DNA from: Acidimicrobiia bacterium
GTDB lineage: Bacteria > Actinomycetota > Acidimicrobiia > Spongiisociales > SHLN01
Assembly (NCBI GenBank): GCA_013002865.1
Contig: JABDLU010000048.1
Coordinates: 1 to 33,587, forward strand
Direction of reading: 5' to 3'
Length of the DNA: 33,587 nt
Position 1 is the first letter of the stretch, and every line of letters begins with the position of its first letter. This document shows positions 3-17,562 of this stretch, piece by piece. The notes under the pieces were generated by a model. That model saw only the letters and a list, made by a program, of their open reading frames with translations, made no database searches and had not been told where the DNA came from. Made by a program: the position numbers and the translations under genes.

Positions 3-3000
3 CTAGGACAGACCGGCTCAGGCGATGACCGCACCGTGCAGTACGAGTACACCCTCAACACCACCCTGCATATTGTGAGCCTCCCCAAGGTGGTGAACCT
101 GGCATCGGGGTGGCGCAACCAAAACAACCCGGCCGCCAAGCCCGATCAGTTGGCCCGCACCGAGATCCTCTACGACAACAACACCTACTTCTGGAACCCA
201 CCCACCAAGGGTGACCCCACCGACACCCGGGTGTATTACGACGACCTGACCGGTCCGATCGGCACCTACACCTACCATCGCAGCCTCACCAGCTACGACA
301 CCTACGGGCGCGTGACCTCGTTCACCGACGCCGAAAGCAACACCACCAACTTCGACTTCGACACCTTCGGCCATGTCGACTGGGTCCGCAACCCGTTGTT
401 GCACGAAACCGACTACGTGACCGACCCCAAGCTTGGCGTTGTGATCCAGATCACCGATGTCAACGACGAAGTCACCAAGGCTGACTACGACGGATTCGGT
501 CGGCTGCTTGGTGTTGAGCGGCCTACCGACCCATCCGGTACCGATGGGGTTCAGTACACCTATACCTATCCGGACCGCGGTTCGCAGGGTGCGGCTGATG
601 ACACGATGGTGCTCACCACCCGCACCCTCCTCGAACCAGGCGTGTTCGTCACCTCGGCCACCCACTACGACGGGCTCGGGCGGGTGGTGCAAACCGACGC
701 CCCCCGCCCCCAGAACGCCACCCAAGCAGTAGTCGGGTTGGTGGACTTCGACCCCGACGGTCGTCCGTTCCGTTCCGGGGTGCCGTTCACGATGTCCAAC
801 GCACCCGGAGCCGCCTACATCGCCGGGGACGTGTGGACGTCGTGGGGCGTGGTCCACGACGAGACCACCTACGCCGGGAACACCACCACCGTCACCCGCA
901 AACAAGGCGCCACCACCGTGTGGTCCTCCCAATCGGTATCCGATGGGTGGGAGACCACCTCCACCGACGCCGAAGGCCACACCACCACCTACGTGAACGA
1001 CGCCTTCGGGCAACTCGTTCAGGTCGACGAAGACAAGGACACCGAGACCTACACCACCACGTATGCGTATGACTTGTCCGGCAACCTGACCACGGTCACC
1101 GACGACGCCAACAACGTCACGTCGATGACCTATGACCGGCTCGGTCAGAAACGCACCATGGACGATCCGGACTCCGGTGACTGGACCTACGTCTACGACG
1201 GCGTCGGGAACATCACCAGCCAACAGGACGGCGAAGGTGATTGGCTGTACTTCGAGTACGACGACCTCAATCGGGTGCTGAAACGCCGGTCAGATAGCGC
1301 GAGTGGGCCCGTGTTGGCCGAATACGCCTACGACGCACCGTTCGTTGGTGCCCTCGACTGGTCCAAGGCCAATGTCACCGGCGGAGAAGTCCGCATCGAC
1401 CACCTCAGCTACGACGACGCCGGGCGGGTCCTGGCCCGCACGCTCACCATGCCGGGCTCGCAGGTGTTCCGGGAGGAGTTCACGTATAACAACGCCGGCA
1501 ATATGGTGACCCGCGCCTATCCGGATGGAGCTACCGGGAACACCGATGAGGTTGTCACCTACGACTATGACGCCGTGTCGGGTCTTCCTGAAACGCTGAC
1601 TGGTGATGCCAGTTTCAGTGACGACGACTACGTGACCTCGACGACGTTTAACCCGTTCGGGCAGATCACCGCCCAACAAGCCGGCACCGGCGACGGCCTG
1701 TACTGGGATCCGGCCTACGACGTCCACACCCGCGTCGAACGATCCCTGGTGCGTCAGGGCACCAGTGGGGGTGCGATCAGTCAGGACTACAACTACGACC
1801 GCGACGACAACGGCCTGATCACCCGCATCTGGGACGACACCGTCGTCAACGATCAGTTCCAATGCTTCACCTACGACGACCTCGGGCGCCTCACGACCGG
1901 ATTCACCGGTGACTGGCTATGCCGCTGGTATCGGTCGAATGGTCCTGATCCGTACTACTTCTCCTATCAGTACGACTCGATTGGGAATCTGACCAAGAAG
2001 GGTGGGGTCACCCTCACCTACAGCGGTGTTGAGGCGGGGCCGCATGCGGTCACCAAGTACGGCACCGATGACTTCGCCTACGACGACAACGGCAACATGA
2101 CCAGCCGCGACATCGCCGGTGGCACCCAGACGCTGGCCTGGGATGACGATCACCAGCTCGATTCGGTTGCGGACACGTCGGGGACTACAAGTTTCCTCTA
2201 TGACGCCGATGGGAACCGGGTGAAACGAACCACCGGGTCAGAGTCGACCGTACACGTGGGCGGGGTGTATGAGTACACCACTGCTGGTGCCAACACCACC
2301 GAAACCAGCTACTACACGGTCGCTGGTCGCACCGTGGCAGTCCGCAACGGCAGCGACCTGCACTACCTAGCCCAGGACCACCTCGGCTCCACCTCCCTCA
2401 CCCGAGACGGAAGCTCGGGGTCGGTTGCGGTGCACCGGTACAAGCCGTTCGGGGACCCACGAGGCACCTCGGCGCCCACGGAGACCGATCACACCTACAC
2501 CGGGCAAATCGCTGATGGGTCGACAGATCTGATGTTCTACAACGCCCGCTACTACGACCCCACCACCGCACGATTCATCTCGCCCGACACCATCATCCCC
2601 GACCCAACAAACCCTCAAGACCTCAACCGATACTCCTACGTCCGCAACAGCCCGACCAACCTGGTTGACCCAACGGGGCATTGTCCCGAGTTCATGAAGA
2701 ACAGCGATGGCGGCTGTTGGGGGGCTGGGGTTGCCCGCGCGGCGGTGACATTTGTAGACCGGACTGCCGACGGCGTTGCCTTTGTCGCTGGGACGGCTAC
2801 GGCATTCGGCTGCGGCCCATGCGCGCCGGTGGCTGCTGCGGCAGTCACGACGGGCCGCGTCACAGATGCCTTGATCTTCGGTGATGAATGTTTCGTTCAA
2901 CGCGATGGTGGTTGTGGCGAGGCTGTCTTCTACATGGCGGTCAACGCCGGAATCCAGGGACTCAATGACGCTGGCAGGATCACTGACGGAGCGGCAGCAG

Positions 3001-3224
3001 CGGGGATTGGCTACACAAGCCTTCTGGTTCCAGTCCTTGGTACGGAGGCTGAGACAACGGCTGAGCCAGCTCAACCCAAGAGAGTGGGCAAGGGGTCTGA
3101 CAGGTTTGAGAAGGGGTCAGGCACGTCCTATTGGGATCACAGCGACGAGTTTCTCTCGCTGCTTCCCTCGTCGAGCCGTCCCAAGTCATCGACCGGTCAT
3201 CTACTAGGGTTGTCGATCGAATGA
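3..3224 (+). CDS. RHS/YD-repeat polymorphic-toxin-like protein, 5' truncated by window edge
   Basis: The frame is open to the left edge; the GTG at 36 in the ORF track is only the first start-like codon, so the true N-terminus lies outside. More than 850 residues are YD/RHS repeats (recurring YDxxGR/YDxxGN blocks), which in this family build a hollow beta-cage shell. They end in the conserved RHS core close (RYSYVRNSPTNLVDPTGH, about residue 865-885 of the visible part). RHS proteins carry a variable C-terminal effector after this motif. Here it is about 170 residues, with an Ala/Gly-rich Cys-containing hydrophobic segment (about 890-1000), then a charged Ser-rich tail. I do not recognise a toxin fold, and the short tail may mean truncation. 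A small membrane protein follows at 3268. RHS identity is certain; effector activity is inference. Confidence 0.93.
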   Translation, partial: LGQTGSGDDRTVQYEYTLNTTLHIVSLPKVVNLASGWRNQNNPAAKPDQLARTEILYDNNTYFWNPPTKGDPTDTRVYYDDLTGPIGTYTYHRSLTSYDTYGRVTSFTDAESNTTNFDFDTFGHVDWVRNPLLHETDYVTDPKLGVVIQITDVNDEVTKADYDGFGRLLGVERPTDPSGTDGVQYTYTYPDRGSQGAADDTMVLTTRTLLEPGVFVTSATHYDGLGRVVQTDAPRPQNATQAVVGLVDFDPDGRPFRSGVPFTMSNAPGAAYIAGDVWTSWGVVHDETTYAGNTTTVTRKQGATTVWSSQSVSDGWETTSTDAEGHTTTYVNDAFGQLVQVDEDKDTETYTTTYAYDLSGNLTTVTDDANNVTSMTYDRLGQKRTMDDPDSGDWTYVYDGVGNITSQQDGEGDWLYFEYDDLNRVLKRRSDSASGPVLAEYAYDAPFVGALDWSKANVTGGEVRIDHLSYDDAGRVLARTLTMPGSQVFREEFTYNNAGNMVTRAYPDGATGNTDEVVTYDYDAVSGLPETLTGDASFSDDDYVTSTTFNPFGQITAQQAGTGDGLYWDPAYDVHTRVERSLVRQGTSGGAISQDYNYDRDDNGLITRIWDDTVVNDQFQCFTYDDLGRLTTGFTGDWLCRWYRSNGPDPYYFSYQYDSIGNLTKKGGVTLTYSGVEAGPHAVTKYGTDDFAYDDNGNMTSRDIAGGTQTLAWDDDHQLDSVADTSGTTSFLYDADGNRVKRTTGSESTVHVGGVYEYTTAGANTTETSYYTVAGRTVAVRNGSDLHYLAQDHLGSTSLTRDGSSGSVAVHRYKPFGDPRGTSAPTETDHTYTGQIADGSTDLMFYNARYYDPTTARFISPDTIIPDPTNPQDLNRYSYVRNSPTNLVDPTGHCPEFMKNSDGGCWGAGVARAAVTFVDRTADGVAFVAGTATAFGCGPCAPVAAAAVTTGRVTDALIFGDECFVQRDGGCGEAVFYMAVNAGIQGLNDAGRITDGAAAAGIGYTSLLVPVLGTEAETTAEPAQPKRVGKGSDRFEKGSGTSYWDHSDEFLSLLPSSSRPKSSTGHLLGLSIE

Positions 3225-4516: not shown

Positions 4517-4780
4517 GTGGATATCCACCACACCGCCCGCAGGCACGGTATCGACGACGAGACCATCCTTCACGCCATCAATCATGCCCTCACCGTCATC
4601 GACCTCGAACCCGACGCTGACCCGCCCAAGGTGCTCGCCATCGGACCCGACCACGCCGGCAACTTGCTTGAGATCGTTTGGCTCGAACTCGCCGAAGGCG
4701 CTGAACTCGTCATCCATGCGATGCCACTGCGCCAAGTGTTCTACGACCTACTTGGACCACCCAGGGAGGACACCCTATGA
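4517..4780 (+). CDS. Putative type II toxin of a toxin-antitoxin pair
   Basis: The protein is 87 residues when begun at GTG 4517 (MDIHHTARRHGI). I recall this opening from a common actinobacterial family of small proteins encoded beside ribbon-helix-helix proteins. Visible features are a HARRHG-like N-terminal helix, a second helix (ETILHAINHALTVID), then strands with IGPDHAGNLLEIVWLEL and a closing IHAMPLRQVFYDLL, a compact alpha/beta layout reminiscent of the RelE/BrnT superfamily. The stop overlaps the next ATG by 4 bp (ATGA), so the two are co-translated. The ORF-track start at 4325 would read through the intergenic element and is rejected. Toxin activity is inferred from context and family memory. 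Confidence 0.65.
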   Translation: MDIHHTARRHGIDDETILHAINHALTVIDLEPDADPPKVLAIGPDHAGNLLEIVWLELAEGAELVIHAMPLRQVFYDLLGPPREDTL

Positions 4781-5058
4781 CTGAACCAACTACCCGTCGT
4801 ACCCCGAGCGGTCGCCCCCTCACCGACGAGGATCTTGATCGCATCGCCACTGAGGTGGAGGAGAAGGACTATGACGTTGAGGCGCTCAAGTCACGCCGTC
4901 GTGGTCGACCCCCGATGGGGTCAGGACCTGCTGATGTTGTGCCGGTGAGGATCGACCCGGAACTGCGGGCCGCCATCGAAGCACGAGCCGTGGCAAACCA
5001 CACCACCACAAGCGAGATCATCCGCGAAGCTCTCCGCCGATTCCTCGACGTTGCCTGA
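4777..5058 (+). CDS. Ribbon-helix-helix (CopG-like) antitoxin
   Basis: The protein is 93 residues. The C-terminal half has the RHH pattern: a strand VVPVRIDPELRAAIEARA followed by helix-turn-helix TTTSEIIREALRRFL. The N-terminal half (RPLTDEDLDRIATEVEEKDYDVEAL) resembles the charged toxin-binding tail seen in antitoxins, joined by an Arg-rich GRPP linker. It overlaps the upstream toxin gene by ATGA. Toxin-first order is less common than antitoxin-first but is known for several families. It probably neutralises the upstream protein and represses the operon; the latter is inferred from the RHH fold. Confidence 0.8.
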   Translation: MTEPTTRRTPSGRPLTDEDLDRIATEVEEKDYDVEALKSRRRGRPPMGSGPADVVPVRIDPELRAAIEARAVANHTTTSEIIREALRRFLDVA

Positions 5059-11208: not shown

Positions 11209-11225
11209 GGGAAACCCTTCGGGGT

Positions 11226-11378
11226 GGTCGCCGGTCGCCGGTCACCGGGAACCCTTCGGATTCCTTGGGAGTTGCTCCGCAACTCCATAACTGGGTTCGA
11301 CCTCTGACTTGCAACTTGCAACTTGAAACCGGCAACTGCTGATCGCCGATTGCTGATTGCTGATTGCTGATTGCTGGC
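11226..11378. repeat. Heptanucleotide tandem repeats downstream of guaA (three families)
   Basis: Three runs with a 7-bp period follow each other: GGTCGCC, GGTCGCC, GGTCACC (11226-11246); ACTTGCA, ACTTGCA, ACTTGAA (11307-11327); and TGCTGAT, CGCCGAT, then TGCTGAT three times and TGCTGGC (11337-11378). A perfect hairpin GGAGTTGC-TCC-GCAACTCC lies between the first two (11268-11286). Runs of this kind resemble the short tandemly repeated repetitive (STRR) heptamers known from filamentous cyanobacteria. Confidence 0.85.
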
Positions 11379-11481: not shown

Positions 11482-13668
11482 GTGGACTGGAACCAGGACG
11501 ACGAATTGCAGGCGATCTTCCGCACCGAAATGGAAGAACGCGCCCCGCATCTGGTTGCCGGTGCCCAGGCGATGATCGACGGCACCCTTTCTGCCGAGAT
11601 CACCGAGCAATGCGTCCGTGAAGCCCACACCATCAAGGGGACGGCCAAAGTCATGGGCTACGACCTCATTGGAGACGCCGGCGGCCGCCTCGAAACCGAT
11701 TGGCGTGCCATCGCCGACCACACGCTGGAGCCAAGCGCCGAGTTGGGGCGCCGATTTCTTGCCCTCAGCAGCCACCTCCTTCCCGCCGTGGACGGCGATC
11801 CCCAACAAGGCACTCCGGAGCTGTCCGACGCGCTCCGAGCGGTGATCCACGGCGAAGAGGTACCCCCGATCCCCGAACCGGCGAGCGCACCCGCTCCACC
11901 CGAGGCCATCAGCATGGCCCCGGAACTGCCTGGGCCCGAACCCGAACCGGTCGAAGCCGACGGCCCGTCGCTCATCGTGATCGACGGCTCGGGCGGGGAG
12001 CGGCCGTCGGTGAACCCCAACGTCGGCAACCTGGGCGGTTTGCTCGCCTCGTCTGAGAACTTCTCCGCAGGCGAAACCACCGGGGTAGACACCGCCAAGC
12101 TCTACCGCCTGATCAATCGAGTAGCCGAGTTGCGCCTGGACGCCGAGGCCCTGGCAGGCACCATCGAAGCGCTGCGCATGGCCGCCACGGCCAGCCCCAG
12201 CGAGGTCGCCGCCCTGGCGTCCCGGTGGGAGACCGCCGTTGCCGACATCGGCGAGGCCGTCACGGAGATCCAGAACCAGGCCGTCACCCTGGTCGCCGTC
12301 CCGCTGTCCACGGTCACCTCGACCGTGCCGGGGCTGGTGCGATTCCTGGCCCGTAAGACCGGGCGGGAGGTGCGGCTCGAGATCATCGACGACGACATCG
12401 AAGTTGACCTGCAGATCCTGGAGAACCTGGGAAACGCCTTCCGCAACCTCGTCGTCAACTCAATCGAACATGGCATCGAGAATCCCGAAGAGCGGGTCGC
12501 CGCCGGCAAGTCCGCCACCGGGACCCTCCGCATCAGCGCAGAGGTGGAGGATGGCCGGCTCAGCCTGTCCGTCAGTGACGATGGGCGGGGAATGAACTGG
12601 GAGCTCCTCAAGCAGACGGCTATCGAAAACCGCCTGGTTGATCAAGCCGGCGAGATTACCGAGGAGCAGCTGCGGCGGTTGCTGTTCGAGACCGGCATCA
12701 GCACGTCCCCGACCCACAGCGAGCTCAGTGGCAGCGGCCAGGGGTTCAACGCCGTGGCGAGGCTCGTCCGCGAGATGCGTGGCACGGTGCGGCTGCAAAC
12801 TGAGCCCGGCGCCGGAACCACGGTCACCATCACCGTCCCGGCCTTCCAGAGTCTGCAGCGGGCGCTCATCGTGGAAGCCGCCGGACGCCGCTGGGGCCTG
12901 GCCGAGCCTGCGGTGCTGGACCGGTTCGCACTGATTGATGCCGATCGGGTCACCGTGGCCGGCAGCCAGGAGGTGGTGTGGGGCGACGGCATGCTGCCGA
13001 TCGGCTCGTTTGCCAACGCTGCTGGTCTGCCAGATACCGAAGCCCACCGCGATGTCGTGGTTGTTTCCACCCAAACCGGCCCGGCAGCACTGGCCGTCAC
13101 CTCCATCGTTGGGGTGCGCGAGGTAGCCACCAAGAGCCTCGGCCCGCTCGTTTCCGGAACAGACCTCATCACCGGCGCCGCCTTGCTCGGAGGCGGCGAG
13201 CTTGCCCTGATGCTCGATGCCAATGCGCTCGGTGAGTCGAGCCGGAAGTCACGGGGTGGGGTTTCTCCGGATGAGCTTGCCCGCGTGCTGGTGGTCGACG
13301 ACTCGCCCGGAGTCCGCCAGATCGTGGCTGGTGCTCTCGCGGCGGGAGGCTTCGACACCGTCGTGGCCGGCTCCGCCGAGGAGGCGCTCGAGGTGGTCTC
13401 TGGTGGCGGCGTCGACGCCATCGTGGTCGACTATTCCATGCCGGGGTCAGACGGCATCTCGGTGGTGGAGCGGGTACGGGCCCGGTCCACCACCCTGCCG
13501 ATCGTGATGATGTCGGCGGTGGCCGAGCGCGCCGACCAGGACCGGGCGAAGGCGGCCGGCGTGGACGCCTATTTCGACAAGTCAGACTTCCGTGAAGGGG
13601 CGCTCGTATCAACCCTTCACTCGCTGCTCGAACGCGCCGATAGAGGACGAGAGGCTCACGCACAATGA
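11482..13668 (+). CDS. CheA-like hybrid histidine kinase with C-terminal receiver
   Basis: The protein is 728 residues from GTG 11482. In order: an Hpt domain with phospho-accepting His49 in AHTIKGTA (about 5-110); a Pro-rich linker (120-195); a dimerisation helix pair (205-260); an HATPase with N-box NSIEHGIENPEER (N326) and SDDGRGMN (D366), the CheA form; a CheW-like domain (about 460-590); and a REC domain (601-722) with VVDDSP and phospho-Asp650 in VDYSMPG. This is the order of CheA-REC fusions in Frz/Pil-type or Alternative Cellular Function pathways. The start is uncertain: the ORF-track start at 11371 lies in the heptad tract and no ribosome binding site precedes either. It overlaps the next response regulator by ATGA. 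Confidence 0.88.
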   Translation: MDWNQDDELQAIFRTEMEERAPHLVAGAQAMIDGTLSAEITEQCVREAHTIKGTAKVMGYDLIGDAGGRLETDWRAIADHTLEPSAELGRRFLALSSHLLPAVDGDPQQGTPELSDALRAVIHGEEVPPIPEPASAPAPPEAISMAPELPGPEPEPVEADGPSLIVIDGSGGERPSVNPNVGNLGGLLASSENFSAGETTGVDTAKLYRLINRVAELRLDAEALAGTIEALRMAATASPSEVAALASRWETAVADIGEAVTEIQNQAVTLVAVPLSTVTSTVPGLVRFLARKTGREVRLEIIDDDIEVDLQILENLGNAFRNLVVNSIEHGIENPEERVAAGKSATGTLRISAEVEDGRLSLSVSDDGRGMNWELLKQTAIENRLVDQAGEITEEQLRRLLFETGISTSPTHSELSGSGQGFNAVARLVREMRGTVRLQTEPGAGTTVTITVPAFQSLQRALIVEAAGRRWGLAEPAVLDRFALIDADRVTVAGSQEVVWGDGMLPIGSFANAAGLPDTEAHRDVVVVSTQTGPAALAVTSIVGVREVATKSLGPLVSGTDLITGAALLGGGELALMLDANALGESSRKSRGGVSPDELARVLVVDDSPGVRQIVAGALAAGGFDTVVAGSAEEALEVVSGGGVDAIVVDYSMPGSDGISVVERVRARSTTLPIVMMSAVAERADQDRAKAAGVDAYFDKSDFREGALVSTLHSLLERADRGREAHAQ

Positions 13669-14666
13669 AAGTACTAATCGCCGACGACAGTCCGGTCCTG
13701 GTGACCGCCCTCCGCAAGCTCCTCGAGCAAAGCGGATACGAGGTCGTGGCGGCAATGGACGGCCTGGAAGCAGTGCAACGCTTCTATCAGGAGAACCCCG
13801 ACCTCGTCCTGCTGGACATTCAGATGCCCAAGCTGCACGGCTATGTGGTGTGCCGCCTCCTCAAAGAGGATCCGGCCAGCCGCCATATCCCCGTGCTCAT
13901 CCTGACCGGTCGCGACTCGGCCGAGGACCGCTACTGGGGCAATCGGTCCGGCGCCGATGGCTACCTCACCAAAGAATCCATGGGCGAAGAGCTGCTCGAT
14001 GCCATCCAGTCGGCGCTGGCCAGCCGGGCCCTGTCGGACATGGGCCGCGTCGAGCCACTCCCACAATCACTGGATGAGAGTGATGTGCTGAGCCGGGTAT
14101 GTGAGGTGCTCGATCGCAAGCTGTTCGAAGCAACCATCGTCAATGACATCGTCGGCGTGGGCGTCCGGGCGATGGACCTCGAGGCCACCGTCGCAGAGGC
14201 CCTGAACATCATTCGGCGGATCCTCGACTTCGAGGCCGGGGGTGTTGTGCTCCCCAACGAGCGCCGCCTGCTGGTCCGGTTCGAAAAGCAGATCTCCCCT
14301 GGGGACTACGACGAGTTCCGGTCGCTGAGCGCGCTGCGCTGCCGCCAGTTCACCACCGCCGACGTGACCGTCGAGGACCTGAGCGTGTCGTTCGTGCACG
14401 GTTTCGGCAAAGACCAGGAACTCGAGGACGTCGCCATCGAAGACTCCGGCTGGCCCTCGTTCGCCGTTGCGCCGCTCTGGTCGCGCGGTGAGGTAGTCGG
14501 CGTGCTCGTACTGGGCTCGCAGCGAGAGGACGTGTTCGGTGACTCGATCGACCGCACATTGCGCACTATCGAGCCCCACGTGGCTTCCGTGGTCGACTCC
14601 GCCCGTCACTACCAGAAGCTCCTCGAACAAGAAGCCAGAAGCTCATTGTCGTCACTCTTCGAGTGA
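13665..14666 (+). CDS. Response regulator, REC-GAF architecture
   Basis: The protein is 333 residues. The REC domain (1-120) has acidic pocket Asp7/Asp8, phospho-Asp51 (LVLLDIQMPK), switch Thr81 and Lys103 (YLTKES). The C-terminal part (about 130-320) looks like a GAF domain: a long entry helix (LFEATIVNDIVGVGVRAMDLEATVAEALNII), VVLPNERRLLVRFEK, and FAVAPLWSRGEVVGVLVLGSQ, the typical closing strand. No DNA-binding, GGDEF or phosphatase domain follows, so output is probably by protein contact or ligand sensing. The ATGA overlap with the CheA-like kinase marks it as its direct partner. Confidence 0.85.
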   Translation: MKVLIADDSPVLVTALRKLLEQSGYEVVAAMDGLEAVQRFYQENPDLVLLDIQMPKLHGYVVCRLLKEDPASRHIPVLILTGRDSAEDRYWGNRSGADGYLTKESMGEELLDAIQSALASRALSDMGRVEPLPQSLDESDVLSRVCEVLDRKLFEATIVNDIVGVGVRAMDLEATVAEALNIIRRILDFEAGGVVLPNERRLLVRFEKQISPGDYDEFRSLSALRCRQFTTADVTVEDLSVSFVHGFGKDQELEDVAIEDSGWPSFAVAPLWSRGEVVGVLVLGSQREDVFGDSIDRTLRTIEPHVASVVDSARHYQKLLEQEARSSLSSLFE

Positions 14667-14710
14667 CCGCAGCTTCGCTGCGTAGTCGATGGTCGTTGGT
14701 CACTAATTGA
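14667..14710. repeat. Short hairpin and heptad run after the response regulator
   Basis: GCAGC-TTC-GCTGC (14669-14681) is a small perfect hairpin without a T-run. It is followed by TCGATGG, TCGTTGG, TCACTAA (14686-14706), the same heptad family as the perfect run at 17443. Confidence 0.6.
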
Positions 14711-15194
14711 GTCGACTGTCAACCGTCAACTGTCGACTGCCAGAACCCGTTTCACGTTCTTCGTGGAATCGAGAGCGGCACGAACTGCCCCTGACCCTAC
14801 CCCCGCGCCGTGGTTGGCTTCCAGGACGGATCATTCGCTCTTGGCCGTTGACCGTCGACGGTTGACCGTTGACTGTTTCACTCATCGGGTCGACGGTCGA
14901 CCGTCAACTGTCGACTGCCAGAACCCGTTTCACGTTCTTCGTGAGGTCAGGAGCGGCACGAACCGCATCCCAGGCCCGACGTCTGCGCCGTGGTTGGCTT
15001 CCAGGACGCATTGTTCGCTCTTGGCCGTTGACCGTCGACGGTCAACTGTCGACTGACTGCCAGAACCCGTTTCACGGGGTTTGTGAGATCGGAGCGGCGC
15101 GAACTGTCCTCACACCCGATGCCTGTGCGGTGGTTGGCTTCCAGGACGCATCGTTCGCTCTTGGCCGTTGACCGTCGACGGTTGACCGTCGACT
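14711..15194. repeat. Three copies of a ~108-bp unit flanked by inverted heptad tracts
   Basis: Bodies at 14739-14846, 14917-15026 and 15059-15166 each begin GCCAGAACCCGTTTCACG and end TTCGCTCTTGGCC, with a strongly shared GTGGTTGGCTTCCAGGACG in between (GCGGTTGG in copy 3). Each body is preceded by heptads of the GTCAACT/GTCGACT type and followed by heptads of the opposite sense, GTTGACC/GTCGACG. The left and right tracts can therefore base-pair and present each body as a loop. ORFs crossing the region on either strand only read the repeat and carry no recognisable domain. The 586-bp gap holds no other gene. Confidence 0.85.
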
Positions 15195-15252: not shown

Positions 15253-17442
15253 GTGGAATCTGATCTCTTTGTCGACCTCAATCCGGCCCAGCGCGAAGCG
15301 GTAGCGGCGACCGAAGGGCCGGTGCTGGTGGTGGCAGGCGCCGGCTCCGGTAAGACGCGGGTGCTCACCTATCGCATCGCGCACCTGCTGCAGGACCTGG
15401 AGATCTCGCCCTATCAGATCCTCGCCATCACCTTCACCAACAAGGCCGCCGCCGAGATGAAGGAGCGGGTCGGCCAGCTGGTCGGCCCCGTGGTCAACTC
15501 GATGTGGGTGTCGACGTTCCACTCGGCCTGTGTCCGGATCCTCCGCCGGGAGGCCAATCGGTTCGGGTATAAGTCGTCGTTCTCGATCTACGACGCAGCC
15601 GATTCGCTTCGGCTGATCACCTACTGCCTGCGCGACCTCGACCTCGACACCAAGCGATTCCCGCCCCGCAACATCCGGGCGGCCATCAGCAACGCCAAGA
15701 ATGAGCTTGTCGATCACGAGACGTTCGCATCGCAGGGATCGGGGTATTTCCACGAGCAGGTGTCCGAGGTCTACCGGCTTTATCAACAGCGCCTGGTCGA
15801 GGCGTCCGCCATGGACTTCGACGACCTGCTCAAGGTGACCGTTGAGCTACTCGGGGCCTTCCCTGAGGTCCTGTCCTATTACCAGGACCGCTTCCGGTAC
15901 ATCCTGATCGACGAGTACCAGGACACCAATCACGCCCAGTACATGATGGTGAAGATGCTGGCCGAGAAGCACGGCAACCTGTGTGTGGTGGGAGATTCCG
16001 ACCAGAGCATCTATGCGTTCCGCGGGGCCAATATACGCAACATCATCGAATTCGAGCGGGACTATCCCGACGCCCGTATCATTCTGCTGGAGCAGAACTA
16101 CCGGTCGACGCAGAACATCCTCGATGCTGCCAACTCGGTCATCGCCAACAACCCGGCCCGCCAGCCGAAGCGACTCTGGACCGATGCCGGCGGCGGAGAG
16201 AAGATCCGCCGGTACGAGGCCCAGGACGAGCGTGATGAGGCCGCCTACGTCGCCGAAAAGGTGGGGGAACTCGAACAGGAAGGCCTGGCGGCCCGTGACA
16301 TGGCCGTGTTCTACCGGACCAACGCCCAGAGCCGCGTGCTGGAGGAAGTGTTCGTTCGCTACGGCATCCCGTACCAGGTGGTGGGCGGCACCAAGTTCTA
16401 CGACCGTCGGGAGGTCAAGGACGGGTTCGGCTACCTGCAGGTGCTGGTCAACCCCGACGACCAGGTCGCGCTCAAGCGCATCATCAACTCACCGAAGCGC
16501 GGGATCGGCGATACGTCGGTCGGGCACATCGACCGGTTCAGCCAGGCCGAGGGGATCACCTTCTACGACGCGCTTCTCAGGATCAACGACATCCCGGGGG
16601 TGTCTAAGCGGGCTGCCAGGTCGGTGACCGAGTTCCTCGGGCTGATCGACTATTTGCGGGAGAAGGCGGAGGCCGGGCCCCGGGCGGCGGTCGACGCGAT
16701 GCTCATCGACAGCGGGCTCGTCCAGGCCTTCGAGGCGGAGCGAACGGTCGAGGCGCTCGGCCGGGTGGAGAACCTCAAAGAGCTGCTCACCATCGCCGAG
16801 GAGTTCGAAGAGTCCGGGCCGGGCCGCGAAGACGCCGAGGGTGTGCCGTGGGTTGAGCTCGATGGCATGAGCCGGCTACAACTGTTCCTGGAAACGGTCA
16901 GCCTCGTGAACGAAACCGATGAGTTGGCCGACGATGCCCACACCGGTGCCGTCACGCTGATGACCCTGCACAACGCCAAGGGCCTCGAGTTCCCGGTGAT
17001 CTTCATGGTCGGTCTCGAAGACGGCGTGTTCCCGCACATGCGATCCCTCGGCGAGCCCGCCGAGATGGAGGAGGAACGCCGGCTGTTCTATGTCGGGGTG
17101 ACGCGTGCCGAACAGCGGTTGTTTCTCATCAACGCCGTTCAGCGGGCGCTATGGGGGGCTCCCAACTTCAACGGCCCGAGCCGATTCCTGCGGGAGGTCC
17201 CCGAGCATCTCCTCGAGGAGGAGTCCCGGGTGCGGCGCGACAAGCGAGAGTCATACCCGGCCCGCCCCGACCCGATCTCCGGCGTGTCAACGGGTGAGCA
17301 GGTCATCCATGACCACTGGGGGAGGGGGATCATCGTCTCGATCGACGGTGCCGGGGACAAAGCCGAGGCTGTCGTCGAGTTCGACGGTGAGGGCAAGAAA
17401 ACCCTGCTGCTCGCATGGGCCCCGCTCCGGAAGGTCGAGTAG
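15253..17442 (+). CDS. pcrA: UvrD/PcrA-family ATP-dependent 3'-5' DNA helicase
   Basis: The protein is 729 residues, the usual PcrA/UvrD length. SF1A motifs are in order: Q-motif region LNPAQREAV, Walker A AGAGSGKTRV (Lys34), motif Ia ITFTNKAAAEMKERV, DEYQDTN (motif II), VVGDSDQSIYAFRGA (III), LEQNYRST (IV), TLHNAKGLEFPVIFMVGLEDGVFP (V) and RRLFYVGVTRAEQRLFL (VI). The C-terminal IHDHWGRGIIVSIDG...LRKVE matches the Tudor-like RNA-polymerase-binding end of PcrA. It acts in nucleotide-excision repair and conflict resolution. The start GTG 15253 gives the expected N-terminus. The gene is alone; a perfect heptad array begins at its stop codon. Confidence 0.95.
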   Translation: MESDLFVDLNPAQREAVAATEGPVLVVAGAGSGKTRVLTYRIAHLLQDLEISPYQILAITFTNKAAAEMKERVGQLVGPVVNSMWVSTFHSACVRILRREANRFGYKSSFSIYDAADSLRLITYCLRDLDLDTKRFPPRNIRAAISNAKNELVDHETFASQGSGYFHEQVSEVYRLYQQRLVEASAMDFDDLLKVTVELLGAFPEVLSYYQDRFRYILIDEYQDTNHAQYMMVKMLAEKHGNLCVVGDSDQSIYAFRGANIRNIIEFERDYPDARIILLEQNYRSTQNILDAANSVIANNPARQPKRLWTDAGGGEKIRRYEAQDERDEAAYVAEKVGELEQEGLAARDMAVFYRTNAQSRVLEEVFVRYGIPYQVVGGTKFYDRREVKDGFGYLQVLVNPDDQVALKRIINSPKRGIGDTSVGHIDRFSQAEGITFYDALLRINDIPGVSKRAARSVTEFLGLIDYLREKAEAGPRAAVDAMLIDSGLVQAFEAERTVEALGRVENLKELLTIAEEFEESGPGREDAEGVPWVELDGMSRLQLFLETVSLVNETDELADDAHTGAVTLMTLHNAKGLEFPVIFMVGLEDGVFPHMRSLGEPAEMEEERRLFYVGVTRAEQRLFLINAVQRALWGAPNFNGPSRFLREVPEHLLEEESRVRRDKRESYPARPDPISGVSTGEQVIHDHWGRGIIVSIDGAGDKAEAVVEFDGEGKKTLLLAWAPLRKVE

Positions 17443-17491
17443 TCGTTGGTCGTTGGTCGTTGGTCGTTGGTCGTTGGTCGTTGGTCGTTGG
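17443..17491. repeat. Seven perfect TCGTTGG heptads
   Basis: Seven uninterrupted, identical copies of TCGTTGG begin at the base after the pcrA stop codon, with a degenerate eighth (GCGTCGG). The identity of all copies suggests recent expansion. The same heptad occurs near 14693, and the unit resembles the TTGGTCA STRR heptamer of cyanobacteria in rotated form. Confidence 0.95.
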
Positions 17492-17562
17492 GCGTCGGCT
17501 AGGTGTGCTGAGACCCCGGGCATTGTGACCTTCAGCCCTGCCGACGATGCCCGTGGGATCGC

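Follow-up and report, generated by a model that had tools for sequence, protein, structure and literature searches.

Tracts of four contiguous 7-bp sites are dispersed across the genome of the Acidimicrobiia bacterium studied here, and we interpret them, with a probability of roughly 0.4, as sites read on DNA by a putative sequence-specific protein, possibly with a boundary or nucleoid-organising role. Five of these tracts lie in a triplicated region at 14711-15194 of the window (the whole stretch of DNA that was analysed, 33,587 nucleotides). The consensus of the tracts in the source MAG (G000) is G[GTCRACB]4-GCCAGAA. The tract, and not the body of sequence between tracts, is the thing at work, and the triplication is a local duplication of a genome-wide DNA tag.

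Architecture of the triplicated region

The region is located between a gene for a response regulator with a GAF domain (13665-14666, forward strand) and a PcrA/UvrD helicase gene (15253-17442, forward strand; the start is at about 15253). A 6-bp stem-loop (CGCAGC-TTC-GCTGCG, 14668-14682, forward strand) immediately follows the stop codon of the response regulator gene, and the outer edge of the first tract is found 44 nt past this stop. Left tract 1 (14711-14737, forward strand) consists of the four heptads GTCGACT GTCAACC GTCAACT GTCGAC(T) followed by GCCAGAA; it is followed by body 1 (14738-14846, forward strand, 109 nt) and by the four heptads of right tract 1 (14847-14873, reverse strand; GTTGACC GTCGACG GTTGACC GTTGAC). 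Left tract 2 (14889-14915, forward strand; GTCGACG GTCGACC GTCAACT GTCGAC) precedes body 2 (14916-15026, forward strand, 111 nt). A hybrid tract without an assigned strand (15027-15053) is common to bodies 2 and 3. Body 3 (15054-15166, forward strand) is 113 nt long, with an extra GACT (a 4-bp duplication), and ends at right tract 3 (15167-15193, reverse strand; GTTGACC GTCGACG GTTGACC GTCGAC).

The three homologous bodies between heptad tracts, as given in the preliminary description, are real: their pairwise identity is 81-86%, and all five tracts are made of exactly four contiguous 7-bp words (GTCRAC plus one base). Triple-heptad matches are found 10 times in the window and in none of 300 runs of an order-3 Markov simulation. 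In the hybrid tract, heptads 1 and 2 (GTTGACC GTCGACG) are of the right type and heptads 3 and 4 (GTCAACT GTCGACT) of the left type, so that the count is again four. This tract reads as a recombination junction, such as would arise if tracts of opposite orientation recombined at common GTYRAC words: the bracketed unit would have been duplicated locally, and a crossover of a right with a left tract at such words would have left a four-heptad hybrid.

The preliminary description is also upheld in setting the region apart from CRISPR and from known transposon ends. A CRISPR array was rejected: it would have unique spacers between direct repeats of 21-40 nt, whereas here the bodies are mutually homologous and the tracts inverted. 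The core site of integron attC is GTTRRRY; attC core sites were dropped, as GTTGACC does not fit this pattern. The window also contains the gene of a 1062-residue RHS-repeat protein (36-3224).

Distribution of bodies and tracts

Sequence searches of its own genome, 40 relatives and plasmids found no further copy of the body. When the whole region is used as a query against its own genome, 57 places are matched, and all except the locus itself match the heptads alone. The pattern (GTYRACN)3 occurs 139 times per strand in this genome versus 4 times for a reversed control. About 70 GTCRAC tracts are dispersed across the MAG (2.92 Mb, 224 contigs). Of the 395 genomes searched in the class, only G000 (50 forward, 24 reverse) and its sister species and congener G002 (18 and 25) carry exact GTCRAC quartets in any number; four other genomes (G034, G276, G315 and G344) have 4-6 matches each. 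In a named genome collection, the only match to the tract followed by GCCAGA is MetaBAT.bin.17.

The position next to pcrA is kept in G002, where the orthologous gap contains a four-heptad pair that flanks another, different body. GTCRAC quartets are present in G002 at the orthologous gaps of pcrA and C58, and other heptads at those of C23, C73, C136 and C218. The heptads do stand to the left and right of each body, as first described, but they are not specific to it, since the tracts form a dispersed family. The possibility of a unique body that arose by a single local duplication, with no paired tracts elsewhere, holds for the body only; the tracts are found again across the genome, around loops that vary.

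The most common number of units is four. Four heptads are found in 54 of the 70 tracts collected in G000 by a detector which requires about four units. An independent count that accepted arrays of three gave four units in 42 of 54 tracts in G000 (three units in only 2) and in 40 of 48 in G002. Some long homogeneous arrays, with 11 near-identical GTCAACG units, are also present in G000.

Position and orientation of the tracts

The tracts are placed at gene edges. The outer edge of the tract is closer to the gene than the inner edge in 44 of 58 cases, and the distance to genes that end towards the tract is mostly 0-45 nt; distances on the 5' side are rough, as gene starts are heuristic. Stems of at least 6 bp within 40 nt of the tract are found on the outside in 27 of 63 cases and on the inside in 10, versus 4 of 63 in shuffled sequence. 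By gap type, 19 tracts of G000 are in convergent gaps, 6 in divergent gaps, and 17 and 16 in codirectional gaps in the two orientations; the last two counts show no preference of the tracts for either orientation relative to transcription. The tract thus ignores the direction of transcription, which argues that it acts at the DNA level.

Most GTCRAC tracts of G000 are solitary. Among neighbouring tracts at most 250 nt apart, 10 pairs face each other, 1 faces away (in this window), 2 point in the same direction and 2 more include the hybrid tract. The inward-facing pairs have an extended inverted repeat, GCCAGAA/TTCTGGC, and the loops between paired tracts, 12 to 113 nt long, have no sequence relation to one another.

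Pairs of this kind could be the ends of small non-autonomous mobile elements (MITE- or REP-like), in which a transposase would recognise the inverted four-heptad ends with GCCAGAA and move the intervening DNA. We consider this origin unlikely. The inward-facing pairs with their inverted repeat, the variable loops, the dispersal and the nearby stem-loops are in its favour, but most tracts are solitary, the loops are unrelated, there is no tail of decaying copies (see below), and viral contigs contain no match to the tract with GCCAGA. MITE or transposon ends would call for related bodies at several loci, target-site duplications and precise empty sites; the bodies are unrelated between loci, and contigs are broken where empty sites would be compared. 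REPs are imperfect palindromes linked to Y1 (RAYT) transposases. As in REP/REPIN and BIME, the tracts are dispersed intergenic repeats that form inverted pairs at gene ends; unlike REP/REPIN, they have no Y1 (RAYT) transposase in any of 14 genomes searched (controls positive in 5; assembly about 90% complete). No reverse transcriptase was found in heptad-rich genomes either, and both a REP/RAYT and a reverse-transcriptase origin were rejected on the absence of these enzymes from the searched genomes.

Pairing of left and right tracts

Pairing between left and right tracts, also proposed in the preliminary description, exists in the sequence (82-85% over 33 nt), but the invariant core by itself accounts for it. 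Covariation of left and right tracts was examined in 12 pairs, three of them from this locus, and none was found: the arms match at 27 of 84 variable positions, versus 36.8 in shuffled pairs. The bodies fold no better than shuffled sequence (z from -1.05 to 0.01). Together with the random orientation (17 against 16), these results speak against the suggestion of a structured RNA or paired stem. A conserved RNA stem is unlikely, given that the arms do not covary and that orientation is indifferent to transcription.

In particular, left and right tracts might pair in the transcript as a stem-loop or terminator that ends or stabilises mRNAs. Paired tracts do form a long stem when folded (-70 to -81 kcal/mol) and tracts often follow stop codons; most tracts, however, are unpaired, the arms lack covariation, orientation is random and the bodies are not unusually folded. 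An Rfam search gave no match, and a U-tract terminator was looked for with none found. We rate this explanation as very improbable.

Heptad arrays of other sequences

Degenerate tandem arrays in unselected DNA show a period of 7 (or 14) and essentially no other among periods 4-15, bar a few of triplet type. There are 53 tandem heptad arrays per 430 kb in G000, and such arrays are seen too in G002, G003 and G014; the array density of G002 is inflated, as its contigs were partly picked for carrying tracts. No heptad arrays are found in 80 kb each of G009, G023 and G027. About 60 different heptads are present, with a repertoire that differs by species. The modal unit count is four across most heptad families (19 of 20 arrays for GTTGCAA). 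In frames set by the consensus alone, position 1 has the lowest variation within arrays, or nearly the lowest, and in three of four genomes position 4 has the highest; in G000, position 4 is second to position 7. A G-Y-Y-N-M-Y-N skeleton is common to the heptads, more than in permuted controls, although the families may descend from one another. The word YCAGAR is found downstream of arrays of several families (23 seen versus about 4 expected). Inward and outward orientations are similar in the other families (G000, G014), which are thus not clearly inward, and inward orientation is claimed for GTCRAC only.

These features could reflect a DNA tagging code that is general to these Acidimicrobiia, with four contiguous G-Y-Y-n-M-Y-n heptads in a fixed frame (positions 4 and 7 free), a YCAGAR anchor and a place at gene edges; from one sister species to the other, the family-specific bases would be replaced at matching positions, as though a rapidly evolving putative reader were coevolving with its sites. 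We regard this extension as doubtful. For the main reading of the tracts as protein sites, the coexistence of many heptad sequences with the same period and modal count is a point against, as it is not obvious how one reader would bind them all.

Within the window, about eight GGTCGTT heptads start at the PcrA stop codon (17439-17498), and the gap before a CheA-like gene is filled by three heptad arrays, GTCGCCG, AACTTGC and GATTGCT (11223-11378). Another repeat, about 80 nt long (AGGAGCACAGGAACGCGCTCTCACCCCCCTCCTTGCCTCCCCCACCTTCGGCGGGGGAGGTA...), is also dispersed in intergenic DNA and is found near heptad arrays in several contigs (L002, L011, L052 and L053). Contig ends often coincide with heptad arrays or lie close to them (L130, L133, L139 and L193 in G002; C71 and C208 in G000), which suggests that the arrays break short-read assembly and are hence undercounted.

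Sequence constraint within the tracts

Pairwise identity among 74 tracts of G000 is 0.967 for the GTC.AC core, 0.518 for the R position and 0.386 for the spacer; the tracts were found at up to 3 mismatches, which favours the core. The patterns of R and spacer are distinct in 60 of the 74 tracts. Identical adjacent units are somewhat above random draws, at 42 versus 26.7 expected in G000 and 39 versus 34.3 in G002. No bulge of decayed copies is seen in the mismatch spectrum, where counts at 4-7 mismatches are near those of control patterns. With the core kept, R and spacer nearly free and the units near-random draws from the motif, the GTCRAC tracts look like putative binding sites and not like products of slippage. 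The earlier suggestion that a protein-binding array is possible was right.

A mutational process with a 7-nt step (polymerase slippage, or template switching, governed by a fixed ruler) might instead build the arrays in intergenic DNA, and ectopic gene conversion might spread and homogenise a few of them, with no function involved. We rate this as possible though somewhat unlikely. Its support comes from the almost exclusive period of 7 or 14 in four genomes, the roughly 60 heptads, the long homogeneous arrays and the occurrence of different heptads in corresponding gaps of G002; in addition, work cited in PMC4692102 has tentatively tied the excess of heptamers in bacteria to polymerase geometry. 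The arrays of 11 near-identical GTCAACG units look like fresh slippage and count against the binding-site reading. Slippage, however, predicts identical neighbours and decaying copies, whereas the GTCRAC quartets have near-random neighbours, a kept core and no decay tail; nor are the sharp count of four and the common flanking anchor expected from it.

Comparison with known heptad repeats

A literature search on the literal words GTCAAC and GTTGAC found no report; the closest published case is that of Xanthomonas. The heptameric intergenic repeats of Xanthomonas (GGGAATC) and Nostoc (GGGGA(C/T)T) have a modal count of four units and 70-75 convergent inverted pairs per genome, lie near the neighbouring ORF and are few between divergent genes; relatives have altered sequences at the same genes, and the G-rich units led to G-quadruplexes being offered as the reason for four (PMC4692102). 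The GTCRAC tracts are a variant of these repeats, minus the G-quadruplex property: they too are intergenic, dispersed 7-bp tandem units, mostly four, with inverted pairs at gene edges, but GTCRACB has no run of three G in the unit and cannot form a quadruplex. They differ also in that many heptad families here follow one grammar and that core and variable positions are clearly separate. The TAACTGA direct repeats of Beggiatoaceae are likewise dispersed intergenic heptamer tandems (2-6 units), but they have a single sequence, lie just upstream of start codons, where a translational role was proposed, and are almost all direct (one inverted case versus 169 direct sets; PMC4679880).

In parS of pSM19035, the ribbon-helix-helix protein omega/ParB binds unspaced 7-bp repeats, direct or inverted, of which at least four contiguous ones are needed for activity; this plasmid centromere has 7-10 WATCACW repeats in promoters and a known protein (PMC9499535). 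The GTCRAC tracts also present at least four contiguous unspaced 7-bp sites, and by this analogy they are best read as a putative array of protein sites. Since the putative reader was not found, omega/ParB serves as a functional analogue only and we do not claim the tracts as a member of that system. Ribbon-helix-helix (RHH_1) hits are present in heptad-rich and heptad-free genomes alike, and their gene content was rejected as a marker of heptad genomes because it does not discriminate. A small gene for a CopG-family ribbon-helix-helix protein is present in the same window (4777-5058).

Proposed role of the tracts

A reader of the GTCRAC tracts would bind with one subunit or dimer per heptad. 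With four units, heptads 1 and 4 would be 21 bp apart, about two helical turns, and would thus present the same face of the DNA. Lying for the most part 0-45 nt beyond gene ends, in many cases directly past a stem-loop, and pointing into the intergenic gap singly or as inward-facing pairs, the tracts may act as boundary or nucleoid-organising sites. Four-unit, inverted heptads at gene edges are already known in Xanthomonas, where they are tied to G-quadruplexes. As the same layout is found in another phylum with a word unable to form a quadruplex, a different cause must lie behind the count of four and the 7-bp period. Because positions that are read stand clearly apart from those that are not, the hypothetical reader can be tested directly.
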